A stretch of DNA of 64,000 nucleotides from Actinomycetes bacterium (GTDB lineage Bacteria > Actinomycetota > Acidimicrobiia > Acidimicrobiales > Microtrichaceae): assembly GCA_024222295.1 (NCBI GenBank), contig JAAEPF010000023.1:62001-126000 (forward strand), read 5' to 3'. The position numbers were made by a program, and so were the translations under genes. Below, piece after piece: positions 5,416 through 64,000 of this stretch (positions within the stretch are counted from its first letter, which is position 1; every line of letters begins with the position of its first letter). A model generated the notes under the pieces. It searched no databases, had not been told where the DNA came from, and worked only from the letters and a program-made list of their open reading frames with translations.

Positions 5416-5475
5416 GGCATCCGCGTGTTGTGCGCGACGCCCCCGGCCCTTGCGGCAACGGGGTGCGTCGGGCGG

Positions 5476-6820: not shown

Positions 6821-6833
6821 TGCAGTCCTCCTG

Positions 6834-7163: not shown

Positions 7164-7202
7164 GTTGTGACCTCCCTGTGGTCCTGGCTCTGTGGCCGTA
7201 GG

Positions 7203-7221: not shown

Positions 7222-7368
7222 AGGGGCTTGGTTGACCTCTCCACTGTAGGGCGTGGCGGGTCCGCGGTCACTTCCGCAGCTGGTTGGTTCCTCCATGCCG
7301 CACATGTTGGCAGCGGGGTGTGACAGCCAACCGCCGCACCACAGCGCGCTGCCGCCGCGTTCCAGCCG

Positions 7369-8226: not shown

Positions 8227-8351
8227 GGCTCGCCTCCTCGTGTGGTCCAGCGCCCCTTGGCTGCCGGCCTTGGTACAAGGTTAGGTCACCCGGCTGTCCG
8301 GACCAAGCGCCGCGGCCCCCGGCGACTTCACGCCACGGGTAGGTTGCACCC

Positions 8352-8555
8352 ATGCCGATCTGTGAGAGCTGCGGGCGCGAGGAGCGCGAAGTCACCAAGG
8401 TGCAGCGCGTCTACCTGGTCGCCGATGACAGCGCCGAAGCCGACGCCAGCCCCGCCGGGATCGAAGCCGGCGCGAGCCCCACCGCCGGCGACATCGAGAT
8501 GTGGTGTGCCTCGTGCTGCGCAACCTTCCCGCACTCGGTCATCGACGCCGAATAG
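8352..8555 (+). CDS. small zinc-ribbon-like protein of unknown function
   Basis: A 67-residue protein with CESC at residues 4-7 and a second knuckle, CASCC, near residue 52; such paired CxxC motifs usually bind zinc. The middle is an acidic Ala-rich stretch. The ends look like zinc ribbons that bridge proteins or nucleic acids, but I recognise no named family. Coding potential is supported by an ATG start, the two CxxC pairs at the expected separation, and its fit between panB (divergent) and ponA (convergent). Confidence 0.6.
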   Translation: MPICESCGREEREVTKVQRVYLVADDSAEADASPAGIEAGASPTAGDIEMWCASCCATFPHSVIDAE

Positions 8556-8626
8556 CAGCCACCCTCGGCTGGACCCGCTGACGGCCGAACAACCGGGCCG
8601 GGCGGATGGACCGCCTGACTGACCGC

Positions 8627-48522: not shown

Positions 48523-50244
48523 GTGCACGATCTCGTGATCAGGGGCGCCACCGTCATCGACGGCACGGGCGCCGAGGCGCGCCATGCCGAGGTTGCGGTC
48601 GACGACGGAGTCATAACCGCTGTCGAGGACTCCGTCGGAAACGCGAGGCGCGTGATCGACGGCGACGGCGCCCTGTTGACGCCGGGATTCGTCGACATCC
48701 ACACCCACTACGACGGCCAGGCCACATGGGATCCGATGTTGTCGCCCTCGTGCTGGCACGGTGTGACGACGATCGTGATGGGCAATTGCGGGGTCGGCTT
48801 TGCTCCTGTGGCAGAGGGCCGCCAGGAATGGCTCATCGGGCTCATGGAAGGCGTCGAGGACATCCCGGGCTCAGCGTTGTCGGTCGGCATCGACTGGCGG
48901 TGGGAGAGCTTCGGTGAGTACCTCGACGCACTCGAGGGGACTCCGCGCACGATGGACATCGGCACACAGGTCCCCCACGGAGCGGTGCGCGCGTACGTGA
49001 TGGGCGAAAGGGGAGCGGCGAACGAGGCCGCAACACCCGAAGACATCACCGCGATGGCCGACATCGTGCGCGACGGAATCCGGGCGGGTGCGCTCGGGTT
49101 CTCCACCAGCCGTACCCTCGCCCACCGCGCAATCGACGGCGAGCCGGTTCCGGGCACGTTCGCGGCCGAGGACGAGCTCTTCGGCATCGGCGAGGTGCTG
49201 GGCGAACTCGGCACCGGCGTGTTCGAGTTGGCGCCCGCAGGTGCCCTCGGCGAGGACCTGGCTGCTCCTGAGAAGGAAGTCGACTGGATGGTGCGGCTGT
49301 CGGAGTCGATCAACCGACCCGTGAGCTTCGCCCTCACACAGAACAACGAGGATCCCGTGCAGTGGCGACACCTCCTCGACCTCGTGGGAAGGGCAAATGC
49401 CGGCGGCGCCAGGGTGAGGCCCCAGGTGCACGGGCGCACCGTGTCGTTGCTCCTCGGCTTCCAGACCTTCCATGCCGCGCAGTTCTGCCCGTCCTGGGCG
49501 GAGCTCGGACTCGGACTCATGGACTGGCAGCAGCAGGTTGCCGAGGTGTCGCGCCCCGAGGTCCGCGAGCGACTGGTCCGTGAACTGCAGTCCATGGAGG
49601 ACGACCCGATCGTGATGGGCTTCATGAACCCCGCGAGCACGTACCTGCTCGGCGACCCTCCTGTGTACGAGCCCGGGCCCCAGCGGTGCGTGGCCGAGAT
49701 CGCGAAGTCCGAGGGCCGCTCGATGTGGGAGACCCTCCTCGACGCGATGCTGGCTGACGGCGGCAGGGAGCTGCTCAACTCGCCGGTGCTCAACTACAGC
49801 GACGGCAATCTCGACGCGGTGCACTCCATGCTGTCGGATCCCAACTCGGCATTCGGTCTGGGTGACGGGGGAGCGCATGCCGGGCAGACCTGTGATGCGT
49901 CCACCACTACGTTCCTGATGACCCACTGGGCCCGTGATCGCCAGGGCGACAAGCTTCCGCTCGAACAGGCGATCCACAAGATGACCGGCGCAACGGCGGA
50001 CCTCTACGAGCTCGGTGACCGGGGCCGACTACAGCCCGGCAAGGTGGCCGACCTGAACCTGATCGACTTCGACTCGCTGGCGCTCAGGCGCCCGCAGTGG
50101 GTGACCGATCTGCCGGGCGGCGCAGGCCGGCTGGTGCAGCGCTCCGAGGGCTACCTGGCCACGATCAAGTCGGGCGAGGTCACGATGGAGGGCGGCGAGC
50201 CCACGGGCGCTCGCCCGGGCGGGCTGCTTCGGGGGTCGCGGTGA
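48523..50244 (+). CDS. N-acyl-D-amino-acid deacylase-like amidohydrolase
   Basis: A 573-residue zinc-dependent metal hydrolase of the amidohydrolase superfamily. DLVIRGATVIDGTGAEARHAEVAV is the N-terminal beta-sandwich, GFVDIHTHYDGQATWDP holds the HxH metal motif, and GLGDGGAHAGQTCDA with the second metal Asp comes late, before QPGKVADLNLIDF. The layout fits D-aminoacylases and related hydrolases. The natural substrate is unknown. The start is GTG 48523 with GGAGGAG upstream. Its stop overlaps the NTF2-like gene (GTGA), so they are one unit. The 180-bp gap before it holds only imperfect GC-rich repeats. Confidence 0.88.
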   Translation: MHDLVIRGATVIDGTGAEARHAEVAVDDGVITAVEDSVGNARRVIDGDGALLTPGFVDIHTHYDGQATWDPMLSPSCWHGVTTIVMGNCGVGFAPVAEGRQEWLIGLMEGVEDIPGSALSVGIDWRWESFGEYLDALEGTPRTMDIGTQVPHGAVRAYVMGERGAANEAATPEDITAMADIVRDGIRAGALGFSTSRTLAHRAIDGEPVPGTFAAEDELFGIGEVLGELGTGVFELAPAGALGEDLAAPEKEVDWMVRLSESINRPVSFALTQNNEDPVQWRHLLDLVGRANAGGARVRPQVHGRTVSLLLGFQTFHAAQFCPSWAELGLGLMDWQQQVAEVSRPEVRERLVRELQSMEDDPIVMGFMNPASTYLLGDPPVYEPGPQRCVAEIAKSEGRSMWETLLDAMLADGGRELLNSPVLNYSDGNLDAVHSMLSDPNSAFGLGDGGAHAGQTCDASTTTFLMTHWARDRQGDKLPLEQAIHKMTGATADLYELGDRGRLQPGKVADLNLIDFDSLALRRPQWVTDLPGGAGRLVQRSEGYLATIKSGEVTMEGGEPTGARPGGLLRGSR

Positions 50245-50717
50245 CCGACGCGGACCGCACCTCGATGGACCCGGTCGACGTGACCCGGCAGTTCTGGCAG
50301 GCCCTCTACGCGCACGACTGGGATGCAGTTGGGTCGTTCTTCGGCCCTGAGTCGGTCTACTTCGACGTGCCGACCGGGCCCTCGACGGCGGCGAAGGGCC
50401 CCGACGACATCGTGCATCGTCTGCGCCTGGGTCTCGACCCGGTCTCGGGGCACGATCACGGTCCCAGCACGGTGGTGGTGGCGGACCCGCCTGTCGTGAT
50501 GACCGAGCACACCGAGATCTGGCACTGGCCCACTGGCGAAACCGCCACCCTGCCGTTCGTGTCGGTGATGTACGTCGAAGCCGGCGTGATCACCATGTGG
50601 AAGGACTACTGGGACTACAACACGCTGCTGGATGCTGCACCCGCGGACTGGCAGGAGAGGCTCTTTTCAGCCGACCTGCACTGGATCCACGACGCGACGG
50701 GCCATCCACGGGCCTGA
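50241..50717 (+). CDS. NTF2-like protein (limonene-epoxide-hydrolase/SnoaL fold)
   Basis: A 158-residue alpha+beta barrel protein. VTRQFWQALYAHDWDAVGSFFGPESVYFDVPTG is the typical N-terminal helix pair and first strand, followed by GPDDIVHRLRLGLDP and FVSVMYVEAGVITMWKDYWDYNTLL, the pattern of limonene-1,2-epoxide hydrolase-like proteins. It may act on the same compound as the amidohydrolase upstream, to which it is translationally coupled (start GTG 50241). The substrate is unknown. Confidence 0.82.
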   Translation: MTDADRTSMDPVDVTRQFWQALYAHDWDAVGSFFGPESVYFDVPTGPSTAAKGPDDIVHRLRLGLDPVSGHDHGPSTVVVADPPVVMTEHTEIWHWPTGETATLPFVSVMYVEAGVITMWKDYWDYNTLLDAAPADWQERLFSADLHWIHDATGHPRA

Positions 50718-50799
50718 CGGGTCGCACGGATCCACCTTGCAAGTGGCATCGGTGTCACGATCGACGTACACACCAGCGTGTCGGGCTGACGAACGCCGA

Positions 50800-51216
50800 T
50801 CAACCGGTGATGGCGTTCCATATGACCGCCAACGACGGCACGATGCTGACCACGAGCATCCCGGCGAGGGCCAGCCATGATCCGACGCGGATCCAGGTCC
50901 GGGCGGGTCGGAGTCCCGGCAGGGCCTCAGGGTCCTCGCCGGGCTCGGGGTGGCCTAGGTCGTCGATTGGCCGGGCAGCGCCCGACGAATCGCTGGCAGG
51001 CCGGGATTCCTCGAGCAGCAACAACTCGAACTCCGCCTCGAGGCGCTGTTCGGCCGGCACCACGACAGTGGCCCCACCGAGACCTGCATATGCCGAGCGG
51101 TCGAGGTTGGTGCGGGTGGTCGCTTCTATGCCCTGGGTACGCAGATAGGAAACCAGCAGGTCGGCCTGGGTGGCCGATGAGGTCCTCGATACGACGACCG
51201 CCGATCGCATCGGCAC
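50800..51216 (-). CDS. DUF2007-like protein with C-terminal membrane helix
   Basis: A 138-residue protein. The first half (ATQADLLVSYLRTQGIEATTRTNLD...ATVVVPAEQRLEAEFELLL) resembles the DUF2007 'putative signal transducing' fold. A Pro/Glu-rich linker and one membrane helix (VGSWLALAGMLVVSIVPSLAVIW) follow. The start is GTG 51216. It stands 3 bp after the PGA-hydrolase-like gene, so they are probably co-transcribed. Function unknown. Confidence 0.7.
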   Translation of the reverse strand: MPMRSAVVVSRTSSATQADLLVSYLRTQGIEATTRTNLDRSAYAGLGGATVVVPAEQRLEAEFELLLLEESRPASDSSGAARPIDDLGHPEPGEDPEALPGLRPARTWIRVGSWLALAGMLVVSIVPSLAVIWNAITG

Positions 51217-51219
51217 ATC

Positions 51220-51846
51220 CTAGGTTGGCCCGGAAGCCGGGTGTAGCAGGGCGGCGGCTTCCACGAGCGCCTCGACCAGCGAAAGCGTGTGGGGCACGAA
51301 CGGCGACGACCCGAAGTCATGGTCGGACCAGACCGGACTCGTGCCCCTGACACGCGGGGGCAGTTCCACCTGCACGCCTGCGCCGCGCACGAGGTTGACC
51401 GGATTCGCCGGGTGCACCCCCCGGTACTGCGGGGGGATCTCGTCCAGCTCGTCGATCACCTCGTAGCCGTCGAGGTGATCGCGAAGTGTGCGGCCCACGA
51501 CGCCGGCATGGGCCCGACCACCGCCCCCCACGGCGATGGTCAGCCAACGATTCGGGTGTTCGCGGACTCCGCCATAGCCGTGCACCGAGATCGCCACCTC
51601 CACGTGGTCACAGAACGCGGCCAGCCGCTCCGATTCGGCCGGGTCGAACCGGTGTGACGGAACATGCCAGGTGAGGTCGTCGGGTTGCACCACGGCGTAC
51701 AGCGACGAATCGCTGCGCCGGGAGGCTTCGTGTGCGATCTCGTACGTCGTCGCCTCGAGACCGCCGTGAAGCGCCATGAACCCCACAGGCGAGCGCAACT
51801 CGAGGTGTTCCTCGACACCCCTTGACCCGAGAAGCTCGCCGAGCAT
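51220..51846 (-). CDS. poly-gamma-glutamate hydrolase family protein
   Basis: A 208-residue hydrolase-like protein of the zinc-dependent phage-type poly-gamma-glutamate hydrolase family. The motifs HGGLEATTYEIAHEA, HVPSHRFDPAESERLAAFCDHVEVAISVHGY, VGGGGRAHAGVVGRTL and GAGVQVELPPRVRG follow the family order; His and Glu in the first and His in the second are the expected metal ligands. Substrates could be D- or L-glutamate polymers or other amides. It starts with ATG 51846. Confidence 0.78.
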   Translation of the reverse strand: MLGELLGSRGVEEHLELRSPVGFMALHGGLEATTYEIAHEASRRSDSSLYAVVQPDDLTWHVPSHRFDPAESERLAAFCDHVEVAISVHGYGGVREHPNRWLTIAVGGGGRAHAGVVGRTLRDHLDGYEVIDELDEIPPQYRGVHPANPVNLVRGAGVQVELPPRVRGTSPVWSDHDFGSSPFVPHTLSLVEALVEAAALLHPASGPT

Positions 51847-51894
51847 CTGCGCAGGGTACGTGAGGGAGCCGTGGCGGGCAGCGCGCCGGCGGCT

Positions 51895-52491
51895 TCAGGA
51901 ACCGCCGGCGACCGGAGCGATTCCCAGGTCGCGGTAGGTGAACACGGGCAGGTACGGCACCCCGTGCTCCTCGAAGAACCTAGCGGCCACGTCGCCGCGG
52001 TCGATGAGGGTTGACGCAGCCACCACGGTTGCACCCGTGTCTGTCACGTGGTGGAACGCCTTCTGGATCGATCCGCCGGTGGTAACGGCGTCATCGACCA
52101 GGAACACGCGCTTGTCGGCGCCCAGCTCGGCTCCTTCCACGAGCTGGTCGGTGCCGCGACCCTTCGGCTTCTTGCGCACGACGAACCACTCGGTGTCGTC
52201 GTCGAGCCAGGCCGCCACCCCATGGGCGAACTGGTCCGCGCCGAGGGTGAGTCCACCCACCGCGTCGAAGGCAATGCCCGCCGCGCCGACGGACTCCGCC
52301 ATCACTTGGCAGGCGAGCCGCAGGTGGCGCCCGGCGGCGAGTGCCCGCTTGCCGTCCACGAAGTCGTGGCTCATCTCGCCCGAAGACAGCTCGCGCGGCT
52401 CCTCGAAGTGGATCAGCCCGCGTTCGCGTACCACCTCGAGCAGCTCGCCTCGCCGGGCCTCATGGTCGGTGTCGGTGCCTTGCGGTGCCAT
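51895..52491 (-). CDS. pyrE: orotate phosphoribosyltransferase-like protein
   Basis: A type I phosphoribosyltransferase, most likely PyrE, which makes orotidine 5'-phosphate from orotate and PRPP. RELSSGEMSHDFVDGKRAL is the OPRT start, VVRKKPKGRGTDQLVEG is the flexible loop and VFLVDDAVTTGGSIQKA the PRPP motif. At 198 residues it is of normal length. No other pyr gene is near, so a salvage role is not excluded. Start ATG 52491. Confidence 0.85.
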   Translation of the reverse strand: MAPQGTDTDHEARRGELLEVVRERGLIHFEEPRELSSGEMSHDFVDGKRALAAGRHLRLACQVMAESVGAAGIAFDAVGGLTLGADQFAHGVAAWLDDDTEWFVVRKKPKGRGTDQLVEGAELGADKRVFLVDDAVTTGGSIQKAFHHVTDTGATVVAASTLIDRGDVAARFFEEHGVPYLPVFTYRDLGIAPVAGGS

Positions 52492-52527
52492 GGGCCCATT
52501 CTGGCCCAGCTCCGTGGCGGTGACGGT

Positions 52528-54231
52528 ATGGTCTCGCCGGTGCCCGCCGATTCACGCGCCGCGGACGGTCCGGTCCTCGACGAGGCCCAGACTGTCGCCG
52601 ACCTTGTGGTTGCACGGGCGGACGATGCCCACACGGCCATCGTGTCCGAGCACGGTTCGTGCACCTGGTCAGAGCTCGTTGAGGCGGCGGGCCGACGCGC
52701 CGCCCTGCTCACCTCGCTGAGGGTCGATGGCCCGTTCAACGTTGGAGTGCTCCTCGACAACTCGCCGGAGTACATCGAGCTCCTGTGTGGCGCGGCGCTC
52801 AGTGGGGCGACGCTCGTGTGCCTCAACTCCACCCGGCGCGGCGACGAGCTGGCGGCGGACATCAACCACACCGACTGCCAGCTGTTGGTGACCGATGGTG
52901 CGCACGCAGCGCTTCTCGATGGTCTGGACACGAGCCTGTCCAACGATCGCGTGCTGCTGTGTGACAGCACCGCCTACGCGGCCGCGCTCGACTCGGTGGC
53001 CCCGGCCGCCTCGTCGCCGGTGGCTCCCGATGACCTCTACCTGCTGATCTTCACGTCGGGCAGCTCGGGTGCACCCAAGGCCGTGCGGATGACCCACGGG
53101 CGTGCTGTACGAGCGGCCGACTCGCTGTTGTGTGGCCGCGACGATGTGCCCTACTGCGCGATGCCGTTGTTCCACGGCAACGCCCTCAATGCCTGCTTCT
53201 TTCCCGCCCTGGGTGTCGGCGCCACGATCGCGCTGCGCCGGAGGTTCTCCGCATCGGCATTCCTCGATGACGTCCGGCGCCACGGCTGCACCTACTTCAG
53301 CTCGATCGGCCGGGTACTCAACTACGTGCTCGCCACACCGGAGCGCCATGACGACGCCGACAACCCCCTCAAGCTCGTGCTGGCGCCAGAGGCGTCGGCG
53401 AGAGACATGGCTGACTTCGAGCGACGGTTCGGCTGCCCAGTCCTTGCCGGCTATGGATCGTCGGAGAACGCGGTCATCCTGTTGCCGGCACCCCGGTCGG
53501 CCGCCGGGGCCCTTGGCGTGGCACCGCAAGGGGAGGACATCGCGGTTGTGGACCCCGATACGGGCCAGGAGTGCCCCCCGGCGGAATTCGACTCCAACGG
53601 CAGACTGCTCAACGCGGAGCAGGCCACCGGCGAGCTGGTGGGGCGCAACGCGCTGGGCCGCTTCGAGGGCTACTGGAACAACCCGGACGCGAGCACTGAA
53701 CGAAGCCGCGACGGCTGGTACTGGTCAGGCGACCTCGCCTACCGCGATCGCGACGGTGTGTTCTGGTTCGCCGGTCGCACGTCTGATTGGATCCGCGTCG
53801 ACGGTGAGAACTTCCCGACCGCTCCTGTGGAGCGCATACTCGAGCAGTTCCACGGGGTGCGCACCGCAGTGGTTTACGGCGTGCCCGACGTGCGCAACGC
53901 CGAGGACCAGGTGATGGCGGCGCTGCAACTCCACGATCCGGCGCAGTTCGATCCCGGGGAGTTCCGCACGTTCCTGGCCGGGCGTGCCGATATGGGCACC
54001 AAGTGGGCTCCGGGCTTCGTGAGGGTTGCGGCTGACCTTCCGGTCACGGGAACCAACAAGGTCGACAAGCGCGCGATGCGATCGGCCGCGTGGTGCACCA
54101 GTGATCCCGTGTGGTGGCGCCCCGACCGTCGCGCCGAGACCTATGTAGAACTCGTCGATGCAGACGTGGAGGGCTTGTTGGAACAGCTGCGGTCGAATCG
54201 GCCCGGGGTGGAACTGCAGCCCGAGCCCTGA
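52528..54231 (+). CDS. acyl-CoA synthetase (AMP-binding family)
   Basis: A 567-residue adenylate-forming enzyme that activates a carboxylic acid as acyl-AMP and then acyl-CoA. The P-loop-like motif is LIFTSGSSGAPKAVRMTH, followed by AGYGSSENAV, GWYWSGDLAYRDRDGVFWFAGR and TNKVDKR with the catalytic Lys. The chain length or type of acid is not clear. ATG 52528 is the best start, as the frame is open far upstream but overlaps pyrE antisense. It diverges from pyrE. Confidence 0.9.
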   Translation: MVSPVPADSRAADGPVLDEAQTVADLVVARADDAHTAIVSEHGSCTWSELVEAAGRRAALLTSLRVDGPFNVGVLLDNSPEYIELLCGAALSGATLVCLNSTRRGDELAADINHTDCQLLVTDGAHAALLDGLDTSLSNDRVLLCDSTAYAAALDSVAPAASSPVAPDDLYLLIFTSGSSGAPKAVRMTHGRAVRAADSLLCGRDDVPYCAMPLFHGNALNACFFPALGVGATIALRRRFSASAFLDDVRRHGCTYFSSIGRVLNYVLATPERHDDADNPLKLVLAPEASARDMADFERRFGCPVLAGYGSSENAVILLPAPRSAAGALGVAPQGEDIAVVDPDTGQECPPAEFDSNGRLLNAEQATGELVGRNALGRFEGYWNNPDASTERSRDGWYWSGDLAYRDRDGVFWFAGRTSDWIRVDGENFPTAPVERILEQFHGVRTAVVYGVPDVRNAEDQVMAALQLHDPAQFDPGEFRTFLAGRADMGTKWAPGFVRVAADLPVTGTNKVDKRAMRSAAWCTSDPVWWRPDRRAETYVELVDADVEGLLEQLRSNRPGVELQPEP

Positions 54232-54259
54232 CCCCGGGGAAGCGCTCCGGCGCCTGCTG

Positions 54260-55072
54260 CTAGGTCTGCGGGGTGGTTGAGACCAGGTCCCAGGTGCCGT
54301 CCTCGGTGTAGGTGACGGTGCCGACTGGTGAGTCCGAGTCGATGTTGGACGAACGGATTCCCCGCAAGGGAAGCCCGTCAGAGGCGCGGAACCAGTACTC
54401 GTTGCGGTTGGTGCCGGACTGGGCACCCGAGATCTCGTGGTCCTGGGTGATGTGGATTGCCTCGAGCTCCTCGTCGCCGACCGTGAGGGTCACGCGACCG
54501 ACGTGCGTGTCGATTCCCGAGGTGATCGTCGTGCCCTCGACCGCGTCGTTGGTGCCTGCACAGCTTCTCTGTTCGGCGTGGCCGGCATCCTTGTCGAAGT
54601 CGAGGAACAGGATCGGCGGGTCACACACGAACGTGGACAGGTTCTCCACCTGCGCCGCGCCCAGGTCCCACTGCTGGTAGGTGTGCCCCCCGTGTTCCAT
54701 GATGCGATCACCGTCGCGACAGAGGTTCCAGTCCTGCCAGTGCGCCTCGTTGTAGTCGATCCGCACCGAGTAGCAGTCGGACTCGTCAGCAGCTGAGACG
54801 GTCATCGGCATTGTTGCGCCGTCGGCCTGCTCCACCGGCGGGAACGAGATTGCCTCGCGGCCTTCACCGGCCAACTCGTACACCCCCGGGGCGGGTGTCG
54901 CAGCGGCATCGGCGGTCGCGCCGGAGTCCTCGTCCTCGGAGCGGAAGTCCTCCAGGGCGTCGTCGACCGAGCGCGCCTCCGGTTCTTCGCGCATGGCGAA
55001 CAGCACGGCCACCACACCCACGGCCACGACGATCACGGCCCCGATCACGGCGAACGGCATCCACCAGCGCAT
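54260..55072 (-). CDS. membrane-anchored extracellular protein of unknown function
   Basis: A 270-residue protein with one N-terminal membrane helix (MPFAVIGAVIVVAVGVVAVLFAM), an acidic Asp/Glu/Ala-rich linker and an extracellular beta-rich domain with four Cys (DCYSV, NLCRD, VCDPP, RSCAG) that may form two disulfides. I do not recognise the family. I start it at ATG 55072; the frame is open to 55288 but that part overlaps the start of the next gene. It diverges from the beta-rich lipoprotein. Confidence 0.7.
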   Translation of the reverse strand: MRWWMPFAVIGAVIVVAVGVVAVLFAMREEPEARSVDDALEDFRSEDEDSGATADAAATPAPGVYELAGEGREAISFPPVEQADGATMPMTVSAADESDCYSVRIDYNEAHWQDWNLCRDGDRIMEHGGHTYQQWDLGAAQVENLSTFVCDPPILFLDFDKDAGHAEQRSCAGTNDAVEGTTITSGIDTHVGRVTLTVGDEELEAIHITQDHEISGAQSGTNRNEYWFRASDGLPLRGIRSSNIDSDSPVGTVTYTEDGTWDLVSTTPQT

Positions 55073-55279
55073 GACACCAAGGTAGCGACGCAGGGGCGGC
55101 GGGCCGGAGTCGACCCGCTCCGAGACCGGGACCAGCCCGGCTGTACGGCCGGATCGGCCACAGGAAGTAGGTGCGGTGCCTCGAGGCTGGATCGCGGTCG
55201 GAAACTGAAGCTGGTTCACAACGGGCAAGAACTGATACGGTCCCGAAGGGCAGTTCGGCGACCATCCCCGGGGGGATCG

Positions 55280-57301
55280 ATGAAGCACCGATCGGTTAGG
55301 CGATCAGTTGGCGCGCGACTGGCGGCCGTAGCGGCCGTGCTGGCGGTTGTGGGCGCTTCCTGCACGACCACGCCCGGAGGCGGCGGCACACCGCCGTCCG
55401 CCCAGCAGTTCTGCGAGTTCTTCGAAGAGGTTTCGGTCGACCCACCCGAGCCCGATGAGACGGTGCTGGTCAAGGACGATGTCGTCGCGATGGCCGAGGA
55501 CACCAATGTCACCGGCAACGACTGCGACGACTCCAATGCCGAGGTCGAGCTCGACGGCGCGCTGCTGGCAGAAGGCGAAGAGGTGCCCTCCGAGCTCGGA
55601 GAGCCTGGAGCCGAGCCCATCGCTGCGATAACCGGCGACGAGATCTCCGCCGGTGAGCCGGTGCTGGACAACGTGAGCGTCCACGCGCTCTCGGCCTCCA
55701 TCAGCCAGGCGGGAATCGTCCTCACGGGCAACGTGCGCGTGACGATCTCCGGGGTCACCTCGACCATCGGGTTCCAGGGCACGTTCCTGAACCTCGACAA
55801 CTGGTCGGTCAGCCTTTCCTCCAGCGCCCTCACCATCCCGGGTATCACCACCGGCCCGGTGGTGTTCTCCGGCACGCTTGCCTACAGCTACGGGGTTCCT
55901 TCGCTGAACCTCTCGGCGAACGCCTCTGAAGTGCAGATCGGCGACATCAAGGTCACCGGGGCGTCCATCAACCTTTCTGCTTCGCAGGCCACAGGGGTCG
56001 AGGCCTCGGTCGCGGGCAGCCTGAAGGTGGGTCCGAGCACGGCCACCGGCACCGTGCACGTCGAGTTCGACCGTGCCGGTGCCCTCGTGTCAGCCAACGC
56101 GGACATCTCGGCACACCTCGTCGGCTACCAGGCCGGCGGCGACATGATCGACCTGCAGGGAACCGTGAAGCTCGAGGGCAACGCGGACGAGACCACAGTG
56201 TCGTTCAGTGGTAGCGGGATCGTGGGCGACCTCCAGGTCAACGCCGCCAACGGCTCGCTCACGCTTGCCACCAACAAGGCCACCTTCGTCGGCAATCTCG
56301 ACGTGCAACAGGGCGGCAGCTGGGTGCGCTTCAACGGCTCGATCGTGTGGGACGGGATCACCGCCTACACGCCATTCCTCACCCTCGAGGGCGGCGGCGA
56401 GTACTCCGGCACGCTGGCCGACGGCCAGGCCGTACGCGCGGCCGGCACCATCGAGACAACGGTGATCGGCAACCAGCTCCGCACCGTGCTCACCGGCGAA
56501 TTCGAGGTGGGCACGCTTGCCGCCAGCGGCGAGGCGATCATCGAGGTCAACGGTGCGAGCACCGCCCTCTACATCGACGCCGACCTGGTCGGGGCAGGGT
56601 TCGACGCCGGGCTCGACGGCGCCGTGGTGATCACCGACGGGCTCGCCGAACAGGTCCAGCTCACCGCCGCGGTGAACGGCGAAGTGGTACTGGGCGACAC
56701 CACACTCACGGGAGCGACGCTCGCAATCGAGAGTTCCTACGGCAGTCCGCTCGACATCAGCTTCTCGGGTGGTATCGAGGTCGGCAACGAGACCAACCTC
56801 ACCGGCAGTGTGGATGCGAGCTTCGGTCCGACCGGAACACTGCTGAGCCTCGTCGGCCAGGTGGACGGGACCCTCACGCTCGATTCATGGGGACTGCTCA
56901 ACTTCTCGGGTTCGATCGTCGCGAGCCCCGAACAGGTGACCATCACCGGCTCGGGCGGCGTCTCCACGATCAACTTCCCGTTGGGGATCAACTTCAGCGG
57001 CTCGCTCACTTCGTCGCTGACCACGCCGAGTTGGTCGCTCAACGGTTCGGCACAGTTCCGCATCGGTTCTCTGGACATTGCAAACGCCAGGGTGAAGCTC
57101 ACCCAGGGCGCAGGGGCCAGGGTCACCCGCGGCGGTTTCTACTTCTCGATCCTGTTCATCCCGACCTACTTTGAAGCCGACTTCCACCTCTTGCCGGGTG
57201 GCGGTTGCTCGAAGGTGGACATCACCGGCGGTTCACTGCTCGCGAGGCCTCTGCTGGCCCTTGCACTGCCCAGCGTGGTGGGCTGCCCGGTCAACATCTG
57301 A
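55280..57301 (+). CDS. large beta-rich secreted (lipo)protein with internal repeats
   Basis: A 673-residue exported protein. A basic start and a hydrophobic segment end in VVGASC (Cys28), a weak lipoprotein signal, followed by TTTPGGGG. After an acidic stretch with three Cys (45-82) comes a long region of alternating beta strands rich in Gly, Ser, Thr and Val (about 130-600). Two copies of a 60-residue repeat are evident: GDIKVTGASI... (221-280) and GDTTLTGATL... (472-531). The C-terminal part holds FYFSILFIPTYFEADFHLLPGG and the last two Cys. No known family; a cell-surface repeat structure is likely. Confidence 0.78.
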   Translation: MKHRSVRRSVGARLAAVAAVLAVVGASCTTTPGGGGTPPSAQQFCEFFEEVSVDPPEPDETVLVKDDVVAMAEDTNVTGNDCDDSNAEVELDGALLAEGEEVPSELGEPGAEPIAAITGDEISAGEPVLDNVSVHALSASISQAGIVLTGNVRVTISGVTSTIGFQGTFLNLDNWSVSLSSSALTIPGITTGPVVFSGTLAYSYGVPSLNLSANASEVQIGDIKVTGASINLSASQATGVEASVAGSLKVGPSTATGTVHVEFDRAGALVSANADISAHLVGYQAGGDMIDLQGTVKLEGNADETTVSFSGSGIVGDLQVNAANGSLTLATNKATFVGNLDVQQGGSWVRFNGSIVWDGITAYTPFLTLEGGGEYSGTLADGQAVRAAGTIETTVIGNQLRTVLTGEFEVGTLAASGEAIIEVNGASTALYIDADLVGAGFDAGLDGAVVITDGLAEQVQLTAAVNGEVVLGDTTLTGATLAIESSYGSPLDISFSGGIEVGNETNLTGSVDASFGPTGTLLSLVGQVDGTLTLDSWGLLNFSGSIVASPEQVTITGSGGVSTINFPLGINFSGSLTSSLTTPSWSLNGSAQFRIGSLDIANARVKLTQGAGARVTRGGFYFSILFIPTYFEADFHLLPGGGCSKVDITGGSLLARPLLALALPSVVGCPVNI

Positions 57302-57366
57302 GCGGTACGGACTGACCCGGTGGGTCCGGCAGGCGGACCCGGACACCGAAAATCGAATGACGTTCA

Positions 57367-57396
57367 TTGACACGTAATCAAGTGATTTGGTAGCAA
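57367..57396 (+). promoter_or_regulatory. candidate promoter of the PKD surface protein gene
   Basis: TTGACA (57367-57372), 18 bp, TAGCAA (57391-57396) in a locally AT-rich stretch, about 40 bp before the start. The gap 57302-57445 holds nothing else. Confidence 0.4.
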
Positions 57397-57445
57397 TTGT
57401 GAAGTGTCAGCTGGCTGCTGACGGCGATTCCTTTTTGGGGGGAAC

Positions 57446-59440
57446 ATGAAAGCACGGCGCGTTCTGGTGTCCGTGGTGGGGGCTGTGGCGCTTGTCGCTC
57501 TTGCCTGCACCACGCCGGGAAGTGGGGGAGGCCCCACCACTACGACGGTCCCGACCGGGCCACCCGATGCCGTGGCCGGTGCGTCTCCCACCGTTGGCAA
57601 CGCGCCGCTCAACGTGAGCTTCGACTCGAGTGGGTCCAATCCCGGCACTGGCACCGGCCTCACCTACGAGTGGGACTTCGGGGATGGAAGCCCGGTGTCC
57701 AGCGCCGCCAACCCGTCACACGTGTATGACACGCCGGGTAGCTACGACGCTGTGCTGCTGATGACCAACTCGTTGGGCGGATCGTTCTCGGCACCCGTGA
57801 CGATCACCGTCAACGTCGACCCCGACCCCAAGTTCTATGCGCGCACCGACGGCAGCAGCGGCGCCGCGTGCGGGCCACTCGCGGATCCGTGCTCGACCAT
57901 CTCCGAGGCCCAGAGCAACGCGGTCGCCAACGGCATCTCCAAGGTCCGCGTTGCGGGCGGCTCCTACACCGACCCGATCTCGCTCGCTTCGGGCATCGAC
58001 ATCACCGGCGGCTGGGAACAGGACTTCAGCGACTTCGGTCCCTCCGAGGTCACAACGATCTTCGGCACCGGCACCGCGACTCCGGTGACGATCGACGGTG
58101 TCAGCAACTCCAGCATCAGCGGTGTCAGCGTCCAGGGTGTCGCGCGGACCTCCGGCAACGCAGTCGGTATCGAGGTGACCGGTGGTGCGACCGGCATCAA
58201 GATCGGTGACATCAACAGCCCCGACACGCTTGTGGCCGGTGGCACAGGTCCCAACGCCACCGGCGTGCTCGTGTCGGGCGGCTCGCTGGTCAGCGTCGAG
58301 AATGCCGACATCAACAGCGGCACCACAACCGGGGCCGGGTCGAGCGCCTATGGCCTGCGGGCACTGGGGCTCTCGGTCGTCAACGTGACCCTCTCCGAGG
58401 TGACCGGCCAACCGGGCATCGACGGTGTCGACGCCCCAGGCGGTACCCCGGCGCAGGCAACCTCCGGCAATGGCGGCGGCGGTGGCAGCGATGCCAGCGG
58501 CCCCAGCAGCCCCGGCAACGGTGGTGGCGGCGGTGGCGGCACCACGTACGGCGGCGGCGGTGGCGGTCGCGGCGGCCAGTACAGCGGTAGTGGCAACAGC
58601 GGCAGCGGCGGCTCCGGTCCTGGTGCCGGCAGTGGCGGCGGCGGTGGCTGCGGCTCGCTGTTCGGCTGCGGTGGTGAGGCCGGTGGCGGCAGTGAGGGCA
58701 CCGCGGGCGCTGCAGGAACGGCTGGGGCTGCGGGTTCCAATACGCCGACTGCGGGCGATCTCTGGAGCTCCACCAACGGCACAGCCGGCACAGCTGGTAG
58801 CGCGGGCAGCGGCGGCGGCGGCGGTGGTGGCGGCAAGTCCGCCAGTGCTTCCGGCGGTGGCGGTGGCGGTGGCGGCGCCGGTGGCAACGGTGGAGCAGCC
58901 GGGTCTGTGGCCGGCACCTCCGGCGGCGGCTCGTTCGGTATCTACGCCAATGACGCCAGCGTCAACGTCTCGTCCTCGACCGCCACGTCCTCTGCCGGCG
59001 GAGTCGGCGGCGACGGGGCGGCGGCCGGTCGCGGTGGCAACGGTGGCAACGGTGGCGACGGCGGCAACAAGTCCTGCTGTGAGGCCGGCGGTGGCGGCGG
59101 TGGCGGTGGCGGCGGTGCCGGTGGCGGCGGTGGCGGTGCCGGTGGCGGTGCCGGTGGTCCGTCGATCGGGATCTACCACATCGGTGTCGGCACCCTGACG
59201 CTCACCGCAAGTGCCCAGTTCCGCCCTGTGTTCCCCTCCTCGGGTGGAACCGGTGGCGCATTTGCAGCGCCGGCGACCGGCGGCGTCGGCGGCATACGCG
59301 GCAACTGTGCCCTGATCGGTGGCTGCGGCGGTGGTGCCGACGGCGGCACGTCCGGACCGGGCAACACCGGCCCGGCCGGCGGCCAGGGGCCCAACGGCCA
59401 GCTGTTCAGGGTCTGGGACAACGGCACCACGACCAGCTGA
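57446..59440 (+). CDS. secreted PKD / beta-helix / Gly-rich surface protein
   Basis: A 664-residue exported protein. The signal ends in VALAC (Cys21), followed by TTPGSGGGPTTTT, like the previous gene product. Residues 37-128 form a PKD domain with YEWDFGDGSP and HVYDTPGSYDAVLL. A right-handed beta-helix-like region with GVSVQG, GIEVTG and GVLVSG repeats follows (about 150-330). Residues 335-580 are extremely Gly-rich (GGGGG, GNGG runs), similar in composition to mycobacterial PE_PGRS tails but unrelated in domain order. GGGGGG precedes ATG 57446. Probably a cell-surface or matrix protein. Confidence 0.85.
   Translation: MKARRVLVSVVGAVALVALACTTPGSGGGPTTTTVPTGPPDAVAGASPTVGNAPLNVSFDSSGSNPGTGTGLTYEWDFGDGSPVSSAANPSHVYDTPGSYDAVLLMTNSLGGSFSAPVTITVNVDPDPKFYARTDGSSGAACGPLADPCSTISEAQSNAVANGISKVRVAGGSYTDPISLASGIDITGGWEQDFSDFGPSEVTTIFGTGTATPVTIDGVSNSSISGVSVQGVARTSGNAVGIEVTGGATGIKIGDINSPDTLVAGGTGPNATGVLVSGGSLVSVENADINSGTTTGAGSSAYGLRALGLSVVNVTLSEVTGQPGIDGVDAPGGTPAQATSGNGGGGGSDASGPSSPGNGGGGGGGTTYGGGGGGRGGQYSGSGNSGSGGSGPGAGSGGGGGCGSLFGCGGEAGGGSEGTAGAAGTAGAAGSNTPTAGDLWSSTNGTAGTAGSAGSGGGGGGGGKSASASGGGGGGGGAGGNGGAAGSVAGTSGGGSFGIYANDASVNVSSSTATSSAGGVGGDGAAAGRGGNGGNGGDGGNKSCCEAGGGGGGGGGGAGGGGGGAGGGAGGPSIGIYHIGVGTLTLTASAQFRPVFPSSGGTGGAFAAPATGGVGGIRGNCALIGGCGGGADGGTSGPGNTGPAGGQGPNGQLFRVWDNGTTTS
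58465..59160 (+). repeat. low-complexity GGC/GGT-rich coding repeat
   Basis: About 700 bp of imperfect GGCGGC/GGTGGC triplets coding for polyglycine with Ala and Ser. It is in frame throughout the PKD gene. Such tracts slip easily, so copy number may vary or be misassembled. Confidence 0.9.
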
Positions 59441-59468
59441 TCCAGCGCCTGCGGCAGCGGGCTCTCAA

Positions 59469-59511
59469 CGACGACAGACGGGGCCGCCTGTGTGGGGTGG
59501 TCCCGTCGTCG
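59469..59511 (+). terminator. terminator of the PKD surface protein gene
   Basis: CGACGAC (59469-59475) pairs with GTCGTCG (59505-59511), and GGGGCC/GGTCCC pair inside. It lies 28 bp after the stop codon. The rest of the 273-bp interval to the response regulator shows no gene. Confidence 0.55.
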
Positions 59512-59713
59512 TGTCCGAGCCCCGCCGCACCATGGCCCGGTTGATCCCCGAGCGGTTTCGGTGGTGCTCAATCATGTCTGGCGCTATCGGGCACCAACAG
59601 AGCCAGTCAGGATCCAGGCACCAGCCTCCCAACTCGGGATCCTGTGCTGGAGTCGGGCGACCGTTTTCGCCTGAGGCATGTGCTTGCGTGTGGACGGTCT
59701 CGGGGAGCGCGAT

Positions 59714-60619
59714 CTAGGTGTCGCTGATCTCGCCCGAAGCCTGGCCGTTTTTGCAGCTCTTGTCGCGGTACATGTCGCGATCCGCAGCGTCCAACAGGCC
59801 TTCCGGGGTCTGGGCGTCTGTGGGGAAGCGCGCACGGCCCAGCGAGACGCTCGGGTAGATCACACCGGCGTCAGTCGTTATGGGTGACTCGAGGTTGCTG
59901 GTGAGTCTCCGGTAGATGGCCTCAAGGTCCCATTCGTCTTCGGCCTCTTCGGCCAGTACCACGAACTCGTCGCCGCCAATCCGGCCGGCCTCATCGGTGG
60001 AGCGCATGGACTCACTCAGTCGTTCACCGATTTGGCAGAGCACGGCGTCGCCGATTGCGTGGCCGTACTCGTCGTTGATGGACTTGAAGCGGTCAACATC
60101 GATGTAGATCACCGTTACTTTCCGGTTGTAGCGCTTTGACCGCTCCACCATCTTGTTGAGGCTCTCGAACAGCGAGCGACGGTTGGGCAGTCCAGTCAGT
60201 GAATCGGTGGCTGCTGCCTGCACGAGTTTCTGGTTCAGATCAAACCGCTCGATCGAGTGACGAATGGTCCTCCGCAAGGCCTTGACCGACACCTCGTCCT
60301 TGCTCAGATAGTCCTGGGCGCCCAGTGAGAGGCAGGTCGAGTCCAGCTCCGCGTCGTCGGAACCAGTCAGAACCACCGTAGGAATGGAACCAACTTGCTC
60401 CAGCCATGTGCGCAGGGTGTCGAGACCGGCACTGTCATCGAGATTCAGGTCGAGAAGGCAGATGTCGAATGCGGAGTCCGAGGCGGAGTCCACAGCCTCT
60501 GTCAAGGAACTGCACTCAGTGGCGATCATATTGGGAATAGCGTTGTTCAACGCTCGCATCAGAAGTCGGCGGTCAACAGTGGAGTCCTCGACGACCAGCA
60601 CCCGGCGCTCGATGCTCAC
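59714..60619 (-). CDS. response regulator diguanylate cyclase (REC-GGDEF)
   Basis: A PleD-like protein that makes c-di-GMP when phosphorylated. The receiver domain (VLVVEDSTVDRRLL, phospho-acceptor in LLDLNL, TGSD, LSKDE, residues 6-125) precedes the GGDEF domain: DSLTGLPNRRSL, VIYIDVDRFKSINDEYGHAIGD and RIGGDEFVVLAEEA. The inhibitory I-site RSTD stands five residues before GGDEF, so product inhibition is expected. The start is GTG 60619 (301 residues), overlapping the stop of the upstream receiver gene (GTGA). The two are coupled. Confidence 0.92.
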   Translation of the reverse strand: MSIERRVLVVEDSTVDRRLLMRALNNAIPNMIATECSSLTEAVDSASDSAFDICLLDLNLDDSAGLDTLRTWLEQVGSIPTVVLTGSDDAELDSTCLSLGAQDYLSKDEVSVKALRRTIRHSIERFDLNQKLVQAAATDSLTGLPNRRSLFESLNKMVERSKRYNRKVTVIYIDVDRFKSINDEYGHAIGDAVLCQIGERLSESMRSTDEAGRIGGDEFVVLAEEAEDEWDLEAIYRRLTSNLESPITTDAGVIYPSVSLGRARFPTDAQTPEGLLDAADRDMYRDKSCKNGQASGEISDT

Positions 60620-61071
60620 GTTCGCACGCCCAACGGTGTGGGTGCCTCCGCGAACCTTGCCCAGATGACGCAGATTGCGTCGATCAAGCAGGTCCAGTCC
60701 TGCAGATGGTGTGGCTTGCCGACGTGTGCAACTGCACCGAGATCGTACGAGCGCCGAACGTCCTCGGTGGTGGAAGAAGTGCTCAGAACGAGCATTGGGA
60801 GGTGCTCGCGCAAGTGACCCGCAGAAGCTGCCTCGAGCAGATGATGCCCGCTGAGCCCGGGGAGATGAAGGTCGACGATTGCCAGTGAGGGCCACGGGTC
60901 GGTGGGCTCGAGCGATGACAGATACTCCAGGGCTGCCTCAACGCTGCTTTCGACATGGAGTTCCGGAATCCAGCTGGCTTGCCCCAGGGCTCTGCACAGG
61001 ACTCGCACGTCGGTAGGGTCGTCCTCGATCAAGAGAAAGACGGGAGTGCCAACGCGAGCAGGGATGACCAC
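60616..61071 (-). CDS. Rcp1-like single-domain response regulator
   Basis: A 151-residue CheY-like receiver with IEDDPTDVRVLCRAL (acid pocket), VDLHLPGLSG (phospho-Asp), STSSTTEDV and the conserved Lys in VGKPHH. The long loop after strand 2 is that of Rcp1-type regulators, which partner CHASE- or phytochrome-type kinases with the SHDLQAPLR H-box; one such kinase starts 107 bp away in the other direction. Start GTG 61071. It is coupled to the GGDEF gene. Confidence 0.9.
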   Translation of the reverse strand: MVIPARVGTPVFLLIEDDPTDVRVLCRALGQASWIPELHVESSVEAALEYLSSLEPTDPWPSLAIVDLHLPGLSGHHLLEAASAGHLREHLPMLVLSTSSTTEDVRRSYDLGAVAHVGKPHHLQDWTCLIDAICVIWARFAEAPTPLGVRT

Positions 61072-61177
61072 GCCTCAAGGCTACCGAGCCTCCGTCGCAA
61101 TCGCGCCTCCGACTTGGCTGCACACTCGAAGTGCAAGGCGGGTCCGGAGGGTTCAGCTGAGACACGCTGTAGCCTTG

Positions 61178-62944
61178 ATGATCATGAGCTCGCGACGCCG
61201 TCTCGTGACTCCACAGCGCCTCACCCTCGCGTTCCTGCTGGTTGTCGGACTCGCGTTTTCGGCTGCAGCGTATTCCGTAGCCAGAAGCATGCTGAGGTCG
61301 TCTTCTGAGGCAGAGACCGCAGACGCGTTGGGGTCAGCGGAGGACGCCATGGTGCTTGCCTTCGAGCATGTGAGGAAGGAGATGATGGCTCTCGGTGCTC
61401 TGCACTACTCCTCGGAGGAGGTGACGCGGCCCGAGTTCACCTCATTTGTGGTGCAAGACGAAATGCTGCGAAATGGCGTCATCGCCATTGAGTGGGCGCC
61501 ACTGATCCGGCCTCACCAGAGAACCGAGTTTGAGCTCGACCTAGGTCAATTCATGCATGGTCTCGGGCCATCCTCGCCGAGTGTCGCAGTCCATCCGGCA
61601 ACGACGAACGACCAAGCCCTGCCGGTCGACTTCGTGGAGCCCTTGACGGGGAACGAGCCTGCCCTGGGCTATGACCTCCTCAGTGAGCCGATACGCCGAG
61701 CAGCTGCAGAAAGCGCACGCGACTCGGGACTCATCACGGCGACCAAGGCGATTTCTCTCGTTCAGCGGCAGCCTCCAGACGATGCCGGGATCCTTCTATT
61801 CAAACCCATCTACGGGACCGGTGATACTCCTGCCACGGTTGACGATCGAAGAGAGGCGTTCATCGGTGCCTATGTAGCGGTCTACGCCCTTGACGACCTG
61901 TTCGAAACTCTGAGGCAGGAGTCGCCTACTGACTTCTGGGTGAGCGAAGAAGCTGGGGACTCCATTCCGGAGGACGGTGCGCAACCATCCGACAGGCTCC
62001 TCTATGGCTCCGATGACCTTTCCAGCCAACCCAATACGCGATCAGCCACCATCGACTTTTTCGACCGGACATGGGCAGTCGGCGTAGCACAAGTACCAGT
62101 TGCGTATGAGGCCCTTCCCTGGCTCGCACTACTGCTTGCGCTCACGGTTGTCGGTCTGTCGTTGCTGTACCTGGCCAACCTCTACAAAGTGCGTGATCAG
62201 GCGGAAGCCAAGAGTCGCATACTGGCCAAGAGCGAGAGCAACCTAAGTCGATCGAATCAGGATCTCCGGGACTTTGTATACGGAGTCTCGCATGATCTGC
62301 AGGCACCGCTCCGCCACGTCTCCGGCTCATTGGATCTCTTGGTAGAGGACCTACCCGAGCCCGCAATGGATGAGGAGGTCTCAACGTCGATATCGCACAT
62401 GCAAACAGCGGTTGACTCCATGGCAGCGCAACTCAAGGGCCTTCTGGAGTATTCACGCCTCGACTCAGTAGCCACGTCGGGAGTACAGGTAGACCTCAAC
62501 GAGGTCCTCGCCGACGCTCTAATACTGCTATCGGCTGAGATCGAGCAGCTTGGTGCGGAGGTGACGGTTCGTGAGTTGCCGCGGGTTACTGGGAATCGGG
62601 AGGCTCTGACAAGCCTCTTCTCCAACCTTGTGAAGAACTCACTGGATTACCGGGACCCGAGTAGGACTCCGAGCATCGAGATACTACAAACCGAGCCCAC
62701 GCAGTCACATGTAGTCATTCTCGTAATCGACAATGGGCTCGGTATCAAGCCCGCGTTTAGAGTCGAAGTCTTCAAGATGTTCAGACACTTCGGCACCCGT
62801 CAGGGTGGTGACGGCTCGGGGATGGGTCTAGCCATCTGCCGGCGCGTTGTCGATCGACATGGAGGTCATATCTATGTCGCCGATCCGCCGACTACGGGTG
62901 GTAACACCATGCGAATCGAGTTGCCGAAAGCCGGTGCGGGATGA
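61178..62944 (+). CDS. CHASE-domain sensor histidine kinase
   Basis: A 588-residue membrane kinase. TM1 (RLTLAFLLVVGLAFSAAAYSVA) is followed by a CHASE sensor (about residues 60-290, with GVIAIEWAPLIRP, GYDLLSEPIRRAAAESARDSG and ILLFKPIYG) and TM2 (LPWLALLLALTVVGLSLLYLANLY). The H-box is VYGVSHDLQAPLR with His372; the ATPase domain has LVKNSLDYRD (N-box), DNGLGI and GDGSGMGLAICRRVVDRHGG. Ligands of CHASE are small molecules such as cytokinins, but the ligand here is unknown. I start at ATG 61178; a second ATG at 61184 is equally possible. Its likely partner is the divergent receiver at 60616. Confidence 0.9.
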   Translation: MIMSSRRRLVTPQRLTLAFLLVVGLAFSAAAYSVARSMLRSSSEAETADALGSAEDAMVLAFEHVRKEMMALGALHYSSEEVTRPEFTSFVVQDEMLRNGVIAIEWAPLIRPHQRTEFELDLGQFMHGLGPSSPSVAVHPATTNDQALPVDFVEPLTGNEPALGYDLLSEPIRRAAAESARDSGLITATKAISLVQRQPPDDAGILLFKPIYGTGDTPATVDDRREAFIGAYVAVYALDDLFETLRQESPTDFWVSEEAGDSIPEDGAQPSDRLLYGSDDLSSQPNTRSATIDFFDRTWAVGVAQVPVAYEALPWLALLLALTVVGLSLLYLANLYKVRDQAEAKSRILAKSESNLSRSNQDLRDFVYGVSHDLQAPLRHVSGSLDLLVEDLPEPAMDEEVSTSISHMQTAVDSMAAQLKGLLEYSRLDSVATSGVQVDLNEVLADALILLSAEIEQLGAEVTVRELPRVTGNREALTSLFSNLVKNSLDYRDPSRTPSIEILQTEPTQSHVVILVIDNGLGIKPAFRVEVFKMFRHFGTRQGGDGSGMGLAICRRVVDRHGGHIYVADPPTTGGNTMRIELPKAGAG

Positions 62945-62978
62945 TTCGCGGGACGCCACCACCAACTGCTCCGGGGCG

Positions 62979-64000
62979 TCAGTATGTCACTGAGCTTTCG
63001 ATCGGGACTTCCACCGCAGGGGAAAATAGATAGCCTTGGCCGAAATGCCAGCCAGCATCCAATACCGCGCGGGCTTCGTTTTCGGTCTCTACTCCTTCAG
63101 CGATTAGGAAGCATCCAAGCGCATTGCCAAGCTGGGCGAGACCAGCCACAAGTTCCATAGCTTGGATCCCCTGTGCGGCGGCTGATGTGAATGAGCGGTC
63201 CAGCTTGATACCGGAGATCGGATGCTCTGCAAGCGAGGAGATCGACGAGTAGCCCGTTCCAAAGTCATCCAAGACGAGCTGGACCCCCTCTTTGGAGAGG
63301 TCCCAGAGCGCTGACTTGGCGTGACCCTGAAGTACGAATAGACCAGCTTCGGTTATCTCCAACCTCACCCTTTGAGGATCAATCTGGGCGGAGTCCATCT
63401 GGGTCTTCAGGAGTTGAGCAAAGCGTGGATCCGATAGCTCGTCGGGCGATGCGTTGATTGACATGTGAGTCAGTGGCTCTAGTTGTGCGAGCTGTAAGAA
63501 GGCTGCAGTGATGACCGACTCCGCCACTTTGACCATGACGCCTGCTTCTGCTGCGCCGGCCAGGAAGTCTGCCGCAGAAACCACACTCCTGTCTGCGTTG
63601 GTCATCCTGGCGAGTGCCTCGTGCCCAACGATCGTTCGCCTACGCAGGTCGACAATCGGCTGGTACCAGGCTGTGACCCGCTCCTCATCCACCGCCCGTC
63701 GAGCGTTCGTAACCGCTCGGAGTCTCTCTGCTGCGGATGAGCCAATGGCCGAGTCGTAGGCAACTACGACGCTGTTCGTCCCTGCCCTCGACTCAAGCTT
63801 GGCCGTGTGAAGGGCGGCAGCCGCCCTGTGAAGCACCTCCTCGGCCGATAGGGAGGCCGAACTTGCGGCACCCACGGAACTCGTCACTGTCAATCGGAAT
63901 CCATCAATATCCATTGGGGCAGTTGTCGCTGTAGCAACGAGGCGTTCAGCGAGACTTCGCACTTCAGCCGCGCTCGAAGACTCAGTGCGAAGCGCGACGA
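62979..64000 (-). CDS. GGDEF-EAL protein, cut by window edge
   Basis: This reading frame continues past the window at its N-terminal end. The visible part is the second half of a GGDEF domain (about 85 residues, with VTSSVGAAS and LHRAAAALHTAK) and a full EAL phosphodiesterase domain: AWYQPIVDLRRRTIVGHEALARM, INASPDEL, RLEITEAGLFV, LVLDDFGTGYSS, IKLDRSF, and AEGVETENEARAVLDAGWHFGQGYLF. The metal residues Glu (EAL), Asn, Glu and DD are present, so it should break down c-di-GMP. It converges with the histidine kinase and probably opposes the GGDEF regulator. Confidence 0.92.
   Translation of the reverse strand, partial: VALRTESSSAAEVRSLAERLVATATTAPMDIDGFRLTVTSSVGAASSASLSAEEVLHRAAAALHTAKLESRAGTNSVVVAYDSAIGSSAAERLRAVTNARRAVDEERVTAWYQPIVDLRRRTIVGHEALARMTNADRSVVSAADFLAGAAEAGVMVKVAESVITAAFLQLAQLEPLTHMSINASPDELSDPRFAQLLKTQMDSAQIDPQRVRLEITEAGLFVLQGHAKSALWDLSKEGVQLVLDDFGTGYSSISSLAEHPISGIKLDRSFTSAAAQGIQAMELVAGLAQLGNALGCFLIAEGVETENEARAVLDAGWHFGQGYLFSPAVEVPIESSVTY

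Follow-up and report, generated by a model that had tools for sequence, protein, structure and literature searches.

Two neighbouring open reading frames (ORFs) on the plus strand of contig JAAEPF010000023.1 from an Actinomycetes bacterium, labelled here P1 and P2, were found to encode predicted lipoproteins whose genes occur together and stay adjacent in related genomes. They lie in a 64-kb window (the whole stretch of DNA that was analysed) of a 3.76-Mb genome that is 97% complete. P1 (55280-57301) has 673 amino acids (aa) and P2 (57446-59440) has 664 aa; both ORFs are intact and are separated by 144 bp. We propose that the two genes make up an envelope module specific to the lineage of Microthrixaceae-type actinobacteria, in which a lipid-anchored groove would work with a wall-embedded beta-helix partner, and we give this reading a probability of about 0.4. 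The coupling of the two genes is well supported and P1 and P2 are very probably linked in function, while a role with lipids is suggested by the sequences and a structural model of medium confidence.

To examine co-occurrence in relatives, as the first-pass annotation of this DNA had advised, we used 61 related genomes, comprising 33 from the family of the window's genome and 28 from 28 other families of the order. P1 matched in 22 of them, all within the family. Of these matches 21 are orthologues of 57-70% identity, those in G017 and G018 being cut short by contig ends, and the one in G013 is a relative at 28%. No match was found in the 28 genomes of the other families, and a class-wide draw of 296 genomes held only two P1 relatives outside the family. 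The 16 named records with P1 relatives are labelled Microthrixaceae (placed in Acidimicrobiia by NCBI), uncultured actinobacteria, Actinomycetota, and Actinobacteria bacterium IMCC26207. P1 is single-copy wherever it occurs except in G015, which has a second copy at 31% identity. P2-like proteins are multi-copy in the family, and a P2 orthologue was taken to be one whose beta-helix part is at least 53% identical to that of the window; the best copies in genomes without P1 reach at most 43%, these identities being measured on extracted loci only. The P2 orthologues, some of them partial, show 54-76% identity. They were present in 19 of the 21 genomes with P1 and in none of the 12 without it (Fisher 2.6e-7; the genomes are not independent samples), and in three of the 12 no P2-like match passed the threshold. 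The pairing is real. Both genes are missing together from some members of carrier genera, namely G016 (genus g2), five genomes of genus g9, and G012 (genus g13); most of these assemblies are 62-84% complete and G016 is 94% complete. The class-wide draw gave strong matches to the beta-helix part of P2 only in the family, and two weak ones outside it. Relatives of P1 were not found in viral_contigs, and a viral or phage origin is thus unsupported.

The two genes were neighbours in 17 of the 18 genomes in which this could be resolved, with gaps of 24-397 bp; G010, G017, and G018 were left out because of contig ends. The exception is G011, where P2 is absent from the 883 bp on one side of P1 and the 6.0 kb on the other. 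Eleven of the 17 pairs are divergent, three run from P1 to P2 (the window included), three run from P2 to P1, and none is convergent; this lack of convergent pairs (0/17) is suggestive and not significant. Adjacency outlives rearrangement, because the order or strand of the pair changed at least four times on the P1 tree and the flanking genes mostly differ between genera, yet the genes remained side by side. The outgroup of the tree was too distant for rooting and only the count of changes was used. Flanks were compared with a crude gene caller; as it often overlooked P2, the position of P2 was taken from tblastn.

We also analyzed the sequence between the genes. A promoter-like element, TTGACA-N18-TAGCAA (57367-57396, plus strand), stands 5' of P2 and has counterparts upstream of P2 in the aligned relatives. 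The pattern TTGACN-(15-18)-TA, picked after that alignment had been viewed, occurred upstream of P2 in 13 of 17 cases compared with 0.45 expected, and upstream of P1 in 0 of 19. It lies 67-99 bp from the P2 start in 10 of the 13 cases and 139-164 bp in the other three. A stricter promoter consensus scan missed the element, a consensus scan for a terminator between P1 and P2 found none, and Rfam gave no match in 50000-64000. P2 probably carries its own promoter, so co-transcription would not be the whole reason for the linkage. An invertible switch around the pair was considered and set aside for the window: of the 45 inverted repeats between 54200 and 60900, the 25 longest are short and imperfect, and none of these seems to form a pair that brackets a gene.

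Both proteins start as bacterial lipoproteins of the Sec/Lgt/Lsp route do, with a signal peptide that ends in a lipobox with an invariant cysteine. The P1 signal peptide (55280-55363) has a basic segment, a hydrophobic stretch, and a lipobox, in the sequence VVGAS-CTTTPGGGG, with Cys28 (codon 55361-55363); that of P2 (57446-57508) has the same layout and a lipobox, in LVALA-CTTPGSGGG, with Cys21 (codon 57506-57508). The cysteine was kept in 16 of 16 aligned P1 sequences and in all 13 P2 sequences covering the site, the window included. We infer lipidation from these conserved lipoboxes, and both proteins would then be anchored in the cytoplasmic membrane by the lipidated cysteine. The first-pass annotation had noticed the basic start, the hydrophobic segment, and the shared C-TT(T)PG, all of which are seen in the ORF translations. 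It had also stated that the two proteins share nothing else, which agrees with BLASTP (best E 1.2 for the single comparison) and with the lack of any Pfam family common to both.

It had further proposed that the two proteins may be exported and anchored together, reasoning from the C-TT(T)PG motif. The conclusion stands as far as sequence can show, given the two conserved lipoboxes, the adjacency, and the co-occurrence; the reasoning does not. CTTTPG was repeated in none of 18 P1 relatives, the nearest being CTTAPG (G011) and CTTPPT (G024). A lipobox was found in 14 of the 17 P2 relatives examined (13 by script and the 14th, L081, by eye; the remaining three lack the N-terminus or are in the wrong frame at the start), and CTTPG in none. 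The residues after the cysteine vary freely within a tether rich in Pro, Thr, Ser, and Gly, with examples such as CSPAAPSG, CTPGPSTP, and CTPTNPGG for P1, CVTPPTDP, CTPSTGSG, and CAPMPTPG for P2, and CAPPAPSG and CVPPTPPG among further starts of either. Elsewhere in the genome, a DNA pattern for CTTPG gave 11 matches compared with 16 for a reversed control pattern, and only the P2 site resembles a lipoprotein start; CTTTPG of P1 is outside the reach of this pattern. A crude scan for lipoboxes covered 464 kb, or about 12% of the genome (the window and a 400-kb sample). It picked up 22 lipobox-like starts, those of P1 and P2 among them; several of the others are clearly not those of lipoproteins, and C-T(T)P occurred only in P1 and P2. 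One P2 paralogue starts CTTPSGGGG. The motif is thus uncommon among the sampled starts, as the earlier proposal needed, and is nevertheless not conserved in relatives. Judging by those relatives, the TT(T)PG likeness is a chance one between two Thr/Pro/Gly-rich tethers, because neither protein family conserves it, and we reject C-TTPG as a sorting or pairing signal.

The architecture of P1 was analyzed with an AlphaFold2 model built from 16 sequences. The model is almost all-beta, with an N-terminal helix (aa 40-53), a long meander of 43 predicted strands (aa 62-651; 55463-57232), of which 35 have at least eight residues, and a hydrophobic C-terminal helix (aa 655-667; 57242-57280). The mean predicted local distance difference test score (pLDDT) is 70.2, mostly 80-90 in the middle of the protein, and the predicted template modelling score (pTM) is 0.47. 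The strands are amphipathic: the contrast in hydropathy between the two faces of the 35 strands is 2.77 compared with 1.40 +/- 0.17 after shuffling, and the hydrophobic face is the more conserved (0.82 vs 0.68 for the polar face). Conserved glycines are concentrated on the hydrophobic face (27 of 200 positions vs 9 of 207 on the polar face, p 0.0014) and are strand-interior there in 20 of the 35 strands, which would be what a sharply bent, taco-like sheet needs. Beside the lipobox cysteine, Cys 45, 82, 643, and 669 are invariant in 16 of 16 sequences and suggest one disulfide near each end. A measure of two-residue hydropathy alternation that does not depend on the model gave z values of 6.2 for P1, 8.4 for TamB, 4.7 for YhdP, 1.9 for TamA (a barrel with soluble domains), 1.2 for P2, and -0.1 and -1.1 for two soluble proteins of the window. 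P1 thus has, by prediction and by sequence, the long amphipathic beta-meander of beta-groove proteins, and whether it forms a hydrophobic groove is in our view an even bet.

P1 was then compared with known systems. The beta-grooves of TamB/YhdP and of LptA/LptD resemble P1 in their long beta-meander and strong two-residue alternation. A passage of PMC11014939 describes TamB as an AsmA-like protein with a repeating beta-groove that is hydrophobic, a signal anchor, and a predicted rod length of 17.8 nm. TamB is held at the inner membrane by a signal-anchor helix, whereas P1 has a lipobox and cysteine; P1 further differs from all these systems in its invariant cysteine pairs, its regular neighbour P2, and a genome in which no Omp85 was found. 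On paper P1 works like TamB, but it lacks the anchor feature and no homology is demonstrated. Membership of P1 in AsmA, TamB, or DUF748 by sequence was unsupported by Pfam, hhalign, and a genome search. DUF748 is AsmA-like, and a search for it in the genome gave no match (its controls were weak, with 4 of 14 detected and none over the cut-off). No Pfam domain matched P1 over the cut-off; LptD_N reached 18.2 bits in one of the 16 family members, below its gathering cut-off of 20.4, and assignment to LptA by NCBIfam failed by a wide margin (14.7 vs 71.7 bits). Sequence relatives of P1 were not found in the PDB. Foldseek ranked ApoB100 first (E 5.1e-6), followed by teneurin and LptD among others, and VIA-align also placed ApoB100 first (Z 14.6, root-mean-square deviation (rmsd) 11.6 over 314 residues). 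The amphipathic beta-belt of ApoB100, a sheet that faces lipid on one side, is the top structural match of P1, yet it superposes poorly (template modelling (TM) score 0.22) and no homology is claimed; ApoB100, unlike P1, is a protein of eukaryotic lipoprotein particles. An outer-membrane beta-barrel would be compatible with the barrels that fill the fold comparison list of P1. It is disfavoured by the lipobox and is unlikely because a search found no Omp85 in the genome (7 of 14 controls were detected).

P2 is predicted to have three parts after its signal peptide. A PKD domain (aa 39-122; 57560-57811) matched Pfam PKD_4 (E 4.1e-17) and collagenase PKD structures. It is followed by a right-handed beta-helix (aa 126-332; 57821-58441), whose later rungs continue beyond this part and whose pLDDT is mostly 85-96 in the AlphaFold2 model. 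The third part (aa 333-652; 58442-59401) is rich in glycine, with 141 Gly and 15 charged residues in 320; in the model, three excursions exit the helix and rejoin it, much of them at low confidence. The cysteine motifs CGSLFGCG, KSCCEA, and CALIGGC of this part recur in most relatives covering them and in a P2 paralogue elsewhere in the genome. Together the three parts would suit a wall or matrix role. A long glycine-rich part is shared with mycobacterial PE_PGRS proteins; these have an N-terminal PE domain, whereas the Pfam scan of P2 gave only PKD families, and P2 differs in its lipobox, PKD domain, and predicted beta-helix. A passage of PMC11939664 describes mycobacterial PGRS as GGA-GGX repeats with polyglycine II (PGII) stacking.

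These features suggest how the module may work. P1 and P2 would be exported by Sec and held at the cytoplasmic membrane. P1 would be a rod-like beta-meander whose strands have one hydrophobic face and often a central glycine, most likely folded into a taco-shaped groove that two disulfides and the C-terminal helix would hold in place, and the groove may hold or conduct lipids or other hydrophobic molecules between membrane and wall. P2, beside it, would most likely bind wall or surface polysaccharide and hold the outer end of the assembly. Their joint task would be the handling of a lipid or hydrophobic polymer, and selection would keep the genes together despite the apparent promoter of P2.

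Three other explanations were weighed. The first, close to the surface layer or matrix suggested in the first-pass annotation, is that both proteins are structural subunits of a coat, with the beta-helix and polyglycine sheets of P2 packing into a protective layer and P1 serving as a lipid-anchored scaffold strut without lipid transport. The PKD matches of P2 include the archaeal surface-layer protein 1l0q, its glycine-rich excursions are conserved in relatives, and its larger paralogues have several PKD domains, as expected of coat proteins. However, a strut exposed to solvent would have no use for the strongly hydrophobic strand face of P1, only one carrier genome has more than a single copy of P1, and no S-layer anchoring domain is among the Pfam matches of either protein. 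The amphipathic meander points to a hydrophobic groove more than to a subunit of a layer, and we consider the coat rather unlikely. It is less probable still that P2 is a polysaccharide-active enzyme of the lyase or esterase type, with P1 as a chaperone or substrate-binding partner for an amphiphilic wall glycolipid. The model of P2 shares the parallel beta-helix of pectate-lyase-type enzymes (Z up to 19.6, rmsd 2.8 over 241 residues), and its top matches are rhamnogalacturonan, alginate, and pectate lyases and pectin methylesterases, but the fold matches phage tailspikes and other proteins as well, and the PKD domain, the lipobox, and the three polyglycine excursions with cysteine motifs, which interrupt the helix, go beyond such proteins; Pfam and NCBIfam gave no enzyme family for P2. 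Least probable, and already disfavoured, is that P1 and P2 are unrelated lipoproteins kept side by side by inheritance alone, a phylogenetic accident of the one family that supplies all pair-carrying genomes, since inheritance would keep orientation and flanks, both of which changed around a lasting adjacency, and both genes are absent together within three genera, though in mostly incomplete assemblies.

Several observations weigh against the envelope module that we prefer. The P1 model has only medium confidence, and five strands among the 35 have a face contrast below 1; four of these lie N-terminal to residue 240, which makes the N-terminal part the worst fit. Foldseek superpositions of P1 were poor throughout (TM 0.22 at best, rmsd >20 Å), with a teneurin ranked third, and the VIA-align rows after ApoB100 were mostly ordinary beta-barrels. 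With single-sequence templates, hhalign gave P1 a probability of 1.6% with TamB and 0.7% with YhdP (0.1% for the control TamA). Over the P1 family, the best Pfam match below threshold was Calycin_like, at E 0.00027 in 3 of 16 members; DUF748 (0.0014, in 4 members) and LptD_N (0.003, in one) came after it. With regard to the pairing, P1 of G011 (95% complete) has no P2 next to it, and that genome has no P2 orthologue; in G018 (78% complete), which also has P1, none was found. The two P1 relatives that belong to another family start in a Sec-type manner, lack a clear lipobox, and have no adjoining P2. The promoter-like element of P2 indicates that the adjacency is not simply that of an operon.

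A more specific version of the envelope module, set in a bacterium with no detectable outer-membrane assembly system, is that P1 forms a lipid-anchored, bridge-like conduit. Its hydrophobic groove of about 17-20 nm would let lipids or hydrophobic polymers leave the membrane and cross the wall, and P2 would be the partner dedicated to its wall side. The length follows from 35-43 strands at the beta-strand spacing of 0.48 nm. We think this version unlikely as it stands; if true, a groove-type lipid bridge arose or was kept outside the known AsmA/TamB setting. Bridge-like lipid transport is best studied in diderm bacteria and eukaryotes. A module of P1 and P2 would open the question of how lipids or hydrophobic polymers pass a thick wall, with a conserved lipoprotein bearing beta-groove hallmarks in an actinobacterial genome where no Omp85 was found. 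A possible role would also be in hand for two proteins to which Pfam and NCBIfam assign no specific model other than PKD. As a pair that remains adjacent while its order and strands change, P1 and P2 further show usefully how functional linkage can be recognized from genome sequence alone. No literature on the pair was found by title or abstract start, in a search that left most subscription papers outside its coverage.

Further observations concern P2-like genes. Multi-PKD forms are numerous in the family, with 60 P2 matches in G008. One locus of the window's genome (L147, G000:C21:16001-36000) encodes a larger P2 relative, whose open frame of 1149 aa includes several PKD-like stretches and ends in a similar Gly-rich part. 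In another (L098, G000:C34:198001-212000, positions 4831-10675), the P2 paralogue with the CTTPSGGGG start and a multi-PKD lipoprotein flank genes of the short-chain dehydrogenase and enoyl-CoA hydratase families; relatives of the latter two genes directly adjoin P1 and P2 in G001 (L087), which gives the impression that only a P2-like gene was left at a former site of the pair. G010 (L097) and G020 (L082 and L111), of genus g11, have a second P2 copy beside the first, about 47-50% identical to that of the window in the beta-helix part. In eight of the 17 adjacent pairs (L086, L087, L089, L091-L094, and L096) P2 is cut off by the end of the contig, six times within its Gly-rich part, and assemblies of this kind therefore probably yield too low a count of P2-like genes. 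In G024 (L084), P1, near its end, and P2 both contain apparent frameshifts, perhaps sequencing errors.

Directly 3' of the pair, the window (59717-63962) encodes a response regulator-GGDEF protein, a CHASE-domain histidine kinase, and an EAL protein, none of which has a counterpart beside the pair in the loci of relatives. A poly-gamma-glutamate hydrolase family protein is encoded on the minus strand at 51223-51846.

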